A DNA stretch of 62,187 nt from the NCBI GenBank assembly GCA_902826395.1, contig CADEER010000014.1:7554-69740 (forward strand), read 5' to 3'. This document shows positions 39,996 through 43,011 of the stretch, piece by piece. A program made the position numbers and the translations under genes. The notes under the pieces are model-generated. The model saw nothing but the letters and a program-made list of their open reading frames with translations, did no database searches and had not been told where the DNA came from. The stretch is from an uncultured bacterium (GTDB lineage Bacteria > Desulfobacterota > Binatia > HRBIN30 > CADEER01). Each line of letters starts with the position of its first letter. Within the stretch, counting starts at the first letter, position 1.

Positions 39996-41108
39996 TCAGA
40001 GCCGCATGGGCATGACGATGTAGCAGTAGTCGGCGTCGCCGGCGAGTCGCAAAACCCCGGGGCTGACCTCGTCGTTCAAGCCGATCTCGACCTCTGATTC
40101 GCCTGGTACCACCGACAGGAGGTCCATCAGGTAGCGCGCATTGAAGCCGACGTTCACGTCGCCACCACTGTAGTCGACTTCGACTTCCTCGCTTCCCTCA
40201 CCCACGTCCGGGTTGATCGTCGAGAGCAGCATCTTTCCCTTCTCGAGCTCGAGTTTGACGCCCTTCGTCCGCTCACTCGAGACGATCGAAACACGACGCA
40301 GGCCAGCGAGCATCGCGGCCGACTCGACCTTCGCAGTCTTGGGCGACTTCTTGGGAATCACCTGGTTGTAGTCGGGAAACTCACCTTCGATGAGGCGCAT
40401 CGACATCTCGACCGGCCCGCGGATCACATATGCAACCCCGTCGGCGAGGATCAAATCGATCTCGTCTCCGTCTGCTTCCAACACCTTGCGGATCTCGACG
40501 ACCGCCTTGCGCGGAACGATCACGCCTGCGCCGGCGACCGCGCCTTCCACCGCTCGACTGATGACGGCCAAGCGGTGACCATCTGTAGCGACGAGTCTCA
40601 GACGGCCTTCATCGGCGCCTTCGATCAGAATGCCGTTCAACGTGACGCGCGTCTCGTCGGTCGATATCGCGAACGATGTCAACTCGAGCATCTGAGAGAG
40701 CACATCGGCCGTGATCTTCACCGCCAGCTTCGCGCCATCGGGAGTAGCCTTGGGCACGTCCGGGAACTCTCGAGGATCGAGACCCACCAGGCGGAAGCGA
40801 CCCTTTCCCGCCTTGACCTCGATCCAGTTGTTCTCTTTGCCGCTGATGACGATGTCGCCGTCCGGAAGCTCTCGAACCACCTCGTACAACTTGCGCGCCC
40901 CCGCTGTGACGGTACCAGGACTCTTCACCTTCGCCGTGCAAGCCCGACGGACGGCAATCTCCTGATCGGTTGCGGAGATCGTCAGGGTATTGCCAGCAGC
41001 TTCGAGTAGAACGTTGTTGAGGATGGGAATCGTCGTGCGGCGGTCAACGATTCCTTGCGAGAGGTAGAGTCCCGCAAGAAGCTCACTTTTCGAGATGCTG
41101 AATTCCAT
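39996..41108 (-). CDS. dnaN: DNA polymerase III beta clamp
   Basis: A 370-residue sliding clamp. It starts MEFSISKSELLAGLYLSQGI and keeps the three-domain pattern, with SATDQEIAVRR near the first domain end, LVATDGHRLAVISR in the second, and the conserved C-terminal YCYIVMPMRL. It tethers the replicative polymerase to DNA. It follows dnaA after a 241-bp gap that carries origin elements. Confidence 0.98.
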   Translation of the reverse strand: MEFSISKSELLAGLYLSQGIVDRRTTIPILNNVLLEAAGNTLTISATDQEIAVRRACTAKVKSPGTVTAGARKLYEVVRELPDGDIVISGKENNWIEVKAGKGRFRLVGLDPREFPDVPKATPDGAKLAVKITADVLSQMLELTSFAISTDETRVTLNGILIEGADEGRLRLVATDGHRLAVISRAVEGAVAGAGVIVPRKAVVEIRKVLEADGDEIDLILADGVAYVIRGPVEMSMRLIEGEFPDYNQVIPKKSPKTAKVESAAMLAGLRRVSIVSSERTKGVKLELEKGKMLLSTINPDVGEGSEEVEVDYSGGDVNVGFNARYLMDLLSVVPGESEVEIGLNDEVSPGVLRLAGDADYCYIVMPMRL

Positions 41109-41349
41109 TTCCGGAGACCCTCAGTCTGGAGGCTTACTATTACTCTGAATTCAATGGCCTAAAAACAGTAGTAGTAGGGCCTGTGGATTTGGGGAATGCG
41201 TTGCCACAGATGGTCGAAATGCGTTTTCGAGTGGGGAGGAACGGGGTGATATTCTGTCATCGCGGCGTACCCAGATCGATGTTCACACACAACATGCACC
41301 GGTTCTCCGCAATCTTTCCGCAGTCTGTACACAGGGCCGGGACGAGACT
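41109..41349. other. Putative core of oriC in the dnaN-dnaA gap
   Basis: The minus strand has the DnaA box AAATCCACA (41190-41182), GC-rich GGCC (41181-41178), then CTA triplets with a final CTG (41177-41166). This is the order DnaA box, GC cluster, DnaA-trio of the basal unwinding system. An AT-rich stretch (41134-41165) follows where strand opening would occur. Further weak boxes lie at 41279-41287 (ATGTTCACA) and 41325-41333 (CTGTACACA). The dnaN promoter and the dnaA terminator must also lie in this gap. Confidence 0.7.
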
Positions 41350-42705
41350 TCAGTCACGGCTCTCCAATTTCGATGCGAGTTTCTCGATCGTGTCGCGCAA
41401 GACCGCATCGTGGCGCAGGCGTCGCTCGATGACGTGGATCGCGTGGATGACGGTCGTGTGATCGCGCCCGCCAAACCGATCACCGATGACGGGGAATGAA
41501 GCCTGGGTGTGATGGCGGCAGAGGTACATCGCGATTTGTCGGGGGTGTGTCAGATGGCGGGTGCGGCTTTTTGAGAGCAGGTCGGAGCGTTGGATGTGGA
41601 AGAAGTCGCTGACGGTGTTCTGAATCGATTCGATGCTGATGCCGCGCGCCGTGCGGTTGTCCAAGAACGACTTCAGGACGCGGCGCGCGAGGTCGAGGGT
41701 TATGGTGTTGCCGTTCAGCGAAGCGTATGCGCACAAGCGCGTCAGACTTCCCTCCAGCTCGCGCACGTTGGACTCGAACGTTTCGGCCAGAAACATGGCA
41801 ACATCCGAGGGCAACGCCAAGTCGTCGCTCTCCGCCTTCTTTTCCAGAATCGCCAGCCGCGTCTCGATGTCAGGCGGCTGGATGTCCGCAATCAGCCCGC
41901 TTTCGAAACGGTTGCGAAGTCGCTCTTCGAGGTGCGGTATCTCCTTAGGGAACTTGTCGGAGGTCAGTACGATCTGTTTGCGGGCCTCGTAGAGCGAGTT
42001 GAAGGTGTGGAAAAACTCTTCCTGGGTCCGCTCCCTGCCGGCCAGAAACTGCACGTCGTCGATGATGAGGAAGTCGACCCGGCGAAAGCGGCGCTTGAAC
42101 TCTTCCATGCGGTCGCGCCGGAGCGCCGCGATGAGCTCGTTCATGAACGAATCGGAAGAAAGATAGACGACTCGCGTCTCCGGACGATCGTCCAGCACTC
42201 TGTTGCCGATTGCGCAGACCAGATGGGTCTTGCCCAAGCCGACGCCGCCGTAGATGAACAACGGGTTGTAGGTGTCGCCGGGTTGACTGGCGACGGCGAG
42301 GGACGCGGCGTGTGCGAACTGGTTGCTCGCGCCCACGATGAAGTTGCCGAACGTGTACTTGGCCTGCAGAGCAGCGCGATCCTGGCTCGGGCGGTCGGGA
42401 CGAGATACCGGCCGCGGGGTGGGAAACAGCTCTTGCTGACCGCCCTTCGCCACCGTGATGTCGAGGTGGCGAATCACACCGCCGCTGTGCTGTGACAGCG
42501 CGCCTTCCAGGAGCTTGCCGCAGCGCTTGCGGGCCAGATCGGCGCTGCCGCGGTCGGTGGCCTCGGCCGTGTAGGTGTCGCCGCGCTTGCCCAGCGGCCG
42601 CAAGCTGTCGAGGAGCAGCTGTGTATCCTCGTCACCGAGAACCGACACGACGGACTCGATCGCTTGCTGCCAGGTCGGATCAGCCGTCGCAGCCACCTTA
42701 TCCAC
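41350..42705 (-). CDS. dnaA: Chromosomal replication initiator DnaA
   Basis: A 451-residue AAA+ initiator. The Walker A motif is GGVGLGKTH, Walker B is DFLIIDDVQFLAG, and the C-terminal DNA-binding domain carries the GGRDHTTVIHAIHVIE signature. Domain I is short but recognisable (WQQAIESVVSVLGDEDTQLL). The frame is open 201 nt further up, but the upstream sequence is unconserved. A GTG at 42705, inside a perfect DnaA box, gives normal length; a GTG nine bases later is possible. No good Shine-Dalgarno sequence was seen for either. Confidence 0.95.
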   Translation of the reverse strand: MDKVAATADPTWQQAIESVVSVLGDEDTQLLLDSLRPLGKRGDTYTAEATDRGSADLARKRCGKLLEGALSQHSGGVIRHLDITVAKGGQQELFPTPRPVSRPDRPSQDRAALQAKYTFGNFIVGASNQFAHAASLAVASQPGDTYNPLFIYGGVGLGKTHLVCAIGNRVLDDRPETRVVYLSSDSFMNELIAALRRDRMEEFKRRFRRVDFLIIDDVQFLAGRERTQEEFFHTFNSLYEARKQIVLTSDKFPKEIPHLEERLRNRFESGLIADIQPPDIETRLAILEKKAESDDLALPSDVAMFLAETFESNVRELEGSLTRLCAYASLNGNTITLDLARRVLKSFLDNRTARGISIESIQNTVSDFFHIQRSDLLSKSRTRHLTHPRQIAMYLCRHHTQASFPVIGDRFGGRDHTTVIHAIHVIERRLRHDAVLRDTIEKLASKLESRD

Positions 42706-42706
42706 A
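42698..42706 (+). promoter_or_regulatory. Consensus DnaA box on the dnaA start codon
   Basis: TTATCCACA, a perfect consensus DnaA box, overlaps the proposed GTG start of dnaA. DnaA bound here would affect its own expression. It is in the same orientation as the two weaker boxes upstream. Confidence 0.8.
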
Positions 42707-43011
42707 GGGGATATCCGGTCGAAAACCCGTTTCGGAACAACCTGTTGCGAAAGTTTACCCAGACGATTCCACAGCGAAATCCACAGGTGGACCCGAGGCG
42801 GAGACCTGAACGGAGATAAGCAGCTTTGTAAAAGTGCGACCGGTGTAGAGCGGGACCGGTGACTTATCCCGAACGGCAAAACGGGGCAAGTGCGGAAACC
42901 ACGCAAAGCACCAAAAAAGTCGGGTCGCGTCGCGTTGAGGCATCACCTGGGTGCCTCGTGCGTATCGCCGGAGTCGTTGCCAGGCCGGGTGCAAGCGGGT
43001 AGCGGAAGCCA
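42706..43011. other. Divergent dnaA-hemL region with further DnaA boxes
   Basis: A 306-bp region. Two near-consensus DnaA boxes, GATTCCACA (42765-42773) and AAATCCACA (42777-42785), lie 12 bp apart in the same orientation as the box on the start codon. A TTATCCCGA element lies near 42863. The promoters of dnaA and hemL must be here. No protein-coding frame is supported. Confidence 0.55.

Follow-up and report, generated by a model that had tools for sequence, protein, structure and literature searches.

Elements between dnaA and dnaN

The question raised by this locus is whether the gap between dnaA and dnaN contains the site at which chromosome replication starts, and by what kind of element the DNA would be opened there. 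In the window, which here means the whole stretch of 62,187 nucleotides that was analyzed, dnaA, dnaN, gyrB and gyrA are on one strand and hemL and parB are on the other. The features discussed below are as follows.

39996-41108, minus strand: dnaN (TIGR00663), with its ATG at 41108
41134-41142, minus strand: candidate inverted (convergent) trio array TAA TAG TAA
41143-41165, no strand assigned: A+T-rich spacer between both trio arrays, from its sequence the presumed unwinding region; its length is conserved relative to the array
41166-41177, minus strand: DnaA-trio array CTA CTA CTA CTG
41178-41181, minus strand: GC cluster GGCC, between box and trios
41182-41190, minus strand: trio-proximal DnaA box AAATCCACA, 2 mismatches to TTATCCACA
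41190-41198, minus strand: upstream degenerate DnaA box CATTCCCCA, 4 mismatches to TTATCCACA
41350-42705, minus strand: dnaA, probably starting at the GTG at 42705, which lies within a DnaA box; the start was placed from relatives
42698-42785, plus strand: three DnaA boxes, TTATCCACA (42698-42706), GATTCCACA (42765-42773) and AAATCCACA (42777-42785)

As read from the window, the minus strand from 41198 to 41166 is CATTCCCCAAATCCACAGGCCCTACTACTACTG, in which the elements are ordered as CATTCCCCA/AATCCACA-GGCC-CTA-CTA-CTA-CTG. A minus-strand order of DnaA box, GC cluster and DnaA-trios had been proposed in the initial annotation, and its coordinates were exact (41190-41182, 41181-41178, and 41177-41166, respectively). 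The DnaA box proposed there was present, but it differed from TTATCCACA at two positions, and the second box with four mismatches, which shares one base with the first and thus gives a tandem layout, had been missed. In three sister genomes of the genus, the tandem layout reads TTTCCCCATATCCACA and the trio-proximal box is ATATCCACA, while the upstream box of G004, a genome of the same family, is CTTTCCACA. The four trios are three 3'-GAT-5' followed by one 3'-GAC-5', and the array is 57 bp from the ATG of dnaN. The stretch from 41134 to 41165, described earlier as AT-rich, was only moderately so (A+T content near two thirds), and towards dnaN it ends in the candidate inverted trio array, which the initial annotation had not mentioned.

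According to published rules, a basal unwinding system (BUS) has a DnaA box with ≤2 mismatches to TTATCCACA that is ≤16 bp from the trios, ≥3 consecutive trios of 3'-NAN-5', of which GAT is the commonest beside the box, and frequently a second tandem box with up to 4 mismatches (Pelliciari et al., 2021; PMC8287927). At this locus, AAATCCACA has 2 mismatches and is 4 bp from four consecutive trios with GAT adjoining the box, and CATTCCCCA, with 4 mismatches, is in tandem, as is CTTTCCACA in G004. The location at the origin, the order kept in relatives and a DnaA with the isoleucine, the arginine finger and domain IV also agree with a BUS. The trio-proximal box, however, is weak and its partner weaker still. 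The motif is very probably a canonical BUS at oriC.

DnaA and helicase-loading proteins

The DnaA encoded by the window was aligned over its full length with B. subtilis DnaA of structure 8btg (2e-121). In this alignment, with residues counted by hand, the equivalents of Ile190 (single-strand binding) and Arg264 (arginine finger) were identical, and the box-reading signature GGRDHTTV of domain IV was kept. In published tests, loss of these residues abolishes unwinding (PMC8287927). The helicase-loading protein genes were also searched. DciA (PF05258) was present at G000:C44:4437-4694, and no DnaD/DnaB-type protein (PF07261) was found in the 95% complete draft genome by a search in which the B. 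subtilis control was positive. Given the presence of DciA and no detected DnaD-type protein, helicase loading is probably carried out via DciA.

The BUS has been tested in diverse species, B. subtilis and six others (PMC8287927). By analogy with these seven species, DnaA would bind double-stranded DNA at the tandem boxes (41182-41198), and the DnaA oligomer would then be guided over the GC cluster onto the trios. There it would hold the plus strand, 5'-CAG TAG TAG TAG-3', in single-stranded form. The A+T-rich spacer would open towards dnaN, and the helicase would be loaded there.

Uniqueness and conservation of the motif

The array word at 41177-41166 is not a chance occurrence, as it was found once in the window compared to 0.04 matches expected from shuffles. 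Moreover, CCACA-N4-CTACTACTR had a single match in the 6.09-Mb draft genome, which is the one upstream of dnaN. All of the other five genomes of the order with this strict pattern also have a match just upstream of dnaN, and one of the five has an extra stray match.

The three genus sisters possess TTTCCCCATATCCACAGGCCCTACTACTACTAT at the equivalent place, an almost letter-perfect motif, and share the near-identical block ATCCACAGGCCCTACTACTACT, although the leader closer to dnaN has diverged; conservation weakens from the inverted array to the dnaN start. In a second genus of the family the motif reads CTTTCCACAGATCCACAGCCCCTACTACGTACTG and is recognizable in this fourth family member. At the class level, a box-like word followed by a spacer and a run of CTA-type triplets was found at dnaN in 48 of 72 loci from 34 genera, a count that depends on the rule used and was 41 under another, and about a third of the class loci do not have the canonical form. 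The same architecture was found in metagenome-assembled genomes (MAGs) of other groups, among them L011, which is labelled Pyrinomonadaceae. The initial annotation had, beforehand, staked its reading on persistence of the triplet run in relatives, and the run was retained. The dnaN relatives of this lineage are mostly from MAGs labelled Deltaproteobacteria.

Loci that deviate from this layout were also observed. In family f10 (L036-L040), CTA arrays are upstream of dnaN and the DnaA boxes are poor or distant, and in two genomes of this group no TTATCCACA-like box was seen near dnaA. In L076, L086, L087, L089, and L092 (families f7, f15, and f16), a TATCC-type box upstream of dnaN precedes triplets on the opposite strand that resemble TAATAATAGTAG, which looks as though the opposite-orientation array alone remains. 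Finally, L014 (2830-3000), a MAG labelled Deltaproteobacteria, has tandem boxes and then TGATGATGATGA with a facing ATCATCAGG; both arms have changed together, and this is a candidate deviant trio without the middle adenine.

A candidate inverted trio array

Across the A+T-rich spacer and in opposite orientation to the trios, the minus strand reads TAATAGTAA (41142-41134), which ends at a distance of 44 nt from where the forward trios begin. All of the following tests on this array were post hoc, designed once the pattern was seen, and their counts include related genomes. Of 148 class genomes, 12 had a strict facing-array pattern, and these came from four genera and three families; none of the 148 had the control pattern ending in the rearranged ATGAT. 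The matches were just upstream of dnaN wherever the position of dnaN was known. In a phylum-wide search, G217 was the sole genome outside the class with a match at dnaN. The matches of G241 and G441 both look like chance, and that of G241 is not near its dnaN hit. Among loci with a forward array, TAGTA ranked first of 30 letter permutations and AGTAGT first of 90. In 16 loci, the distance from the end of the inverted array to the forward array was 45 ± 5 nt, a narrowness partly built in by limiting the search to positions 15-75, and that to the dnaN ATG was 12-121 nt.

The inverted similarity between the two arms in 34 genera was 8.79, compared to 8.01 ± 0.17 for mononucleotide shuffles, which the direct-repeat control did not exceed. 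With dinucleotide shuffles, a stricter test, the inverted array of 36 loci was overall not significant (median p 0.33; Wilcoxon 0.10); p < 0.05 was reached in 19% of these loci, compared to 6% for each control orientation, and the signal was strong in family f1 only.

The inverted array may be read as trios on the second strand, form a hairpin or be a purine-rich leader. In B. subtilis, helicase loading on the second strand involves DnaD on the DnaD recognition element (DRE; PMC10201434). With DciA present and no DnaD-type protein detected, this DnaD/DRE route appears unavailable here, which makes a convergent arrangement worth testing. We tentatively propose, as a possibility that is still doubtful, that the A+T-rich spacer is flanked by two convergent DnaA-trio arrays, one per strand. 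Each of the two single strands could then be held by DnaA and receive its own helicase loader, with no need for DnaD. If true, the facing arrays would be a sequence-coded route to a bidirectional start. No description of inverted, palindromic or opposing trios was found in searches of the open-access literature.

The facing arrays may instead form a hairpin or cruciform in which pairing, not trio reading, is conserved, an explanation that concerns the inverted array only and is compatible with a BUS. The arms do fold well in the f8 genomes and G002 (z -2.5 to -4.7), and those of L014 have diverged together to TGATGATGA and ATCATCA. However, the segment in the window folds no better than its shuffles (z +0.5), and pairing between arms of the same genome barely exceeds pairing across genomes (p 0.054). 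We consider a conserved hairpin unlikely.

GC skew and the replication start

Across the window, the cumulative G-C curve is lowest at 40962, about 200 bp from the motif and not far from the 41 kb that the initial annotation implied. Sense-strand skew was -0.083 in dnaA and +0.085 in dnaN, which are read in the same direction, and the same contrast, negative in dnaA and positive in dnaN, was found in eight relatives. As the source genome is a draft, chromosome-scale skew was sampled in a complete, single-contig genome of the same class (G077, one sample per 210 kb) and in a 1.07-Mb contig of G004. In G077, negative skew prevailed on one side and positive skew on the other, with a sign change near dnaN (2.48 Mb), a second change near 0.2-0.4 Mb, about half a chromosome from dnaN, and one deviating sample at 2.05 Mb. 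Contig 2 of G004 was weakly asymmetric: its skew was negative up to dnaN and close to zero from there on. The sign change between dnaA and dnaN, with which G077 agrees and G004 agrees weakly, indirectly places the motif within the chromosome origin.

The position of the flip also bears on two other explanations. The first is that the element is a promoter or leader of dnaN, a signal for transcription or translation with an incidental resemblance to a BUS. The element is indeed 57 bp before the ATG, and an A+T-rich stretch ahead of a gene can be a promoter. What is conserved, however, is a block of DnaA box and CTA repeats, the arrays keep their own spacing in relatives whereas the distance to the ATG varies (see above), and the skew flips at the dnaA-dnaN gap; a promoter or leader is very improbable. 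Equally improbable is a true opening site in the box cluster at the dnaA start (42698-42785) with the dnaA-dnaN element as an auxiliary: this cluster has the only perfect TTATCCACA of the window and a box spacing (12 and 67) identical in the three genus sisters, but no trios were seen beside its boxes, the flip is between dnaA and dnaN and not upstream of dnaA, and one box contains the likely GTG start codon of dnaA, which suggests dnaA autoregulation.

The motif order, its conservation and the skew flip support the earlier reading of the element as a BUS placed between dnaA and dnaN as in B. subtilis. With a BUS at this position, the replication start of a little-studied lineage would be narrowed to about 60 bp.

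Comparison with known systems

A BUS was predicted in 85% of 2070 species by Pelliciari and colleagues (PMC8287927). Thus, the kind of system found here is already known. No description of a BUS for this lineage was found in the literature, and our results would extend its distribution by many genera. Similar to the BUS of B. subtilis oriC are the element order, the location between dnaA and dnaN, the tandem boxes, the TAG-type trios and the DnaA residues (PMC6669920; PMC8287927). Different from B. subtilis, the boxes are more degenerate, a DnaD-type protein was not found and a candidate inverted trio array is on the other strand.

The DUE of Thermotoga maritima oriC has an extended trio of three TAG repeats that is essential for single-strand binding, and the TAG repeats are shared with the locus of this study (PMC10316083). 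In the portions of that report available, however, the trio elements of T. maritima occupy a single strand and are flanked by a TTATT motif and box 1, and a facing array is not described.

The DRE of B. subtilis is on the strand opposite to the trios, as is the inverted array here, and was proposed to recruit the second helicase (PMC10201434). It is read by DnaD, however, which was undetected in this genome, and the inverted array resembles trios and not just TnnT. The inverted array was also considered as a DRE and set aside, as PF07261 was not found in the 95% complete draft. Should DnaA bind the facing arrays, they would be relevant to how bacteria without DnaD bring a second helicase to the other strand.
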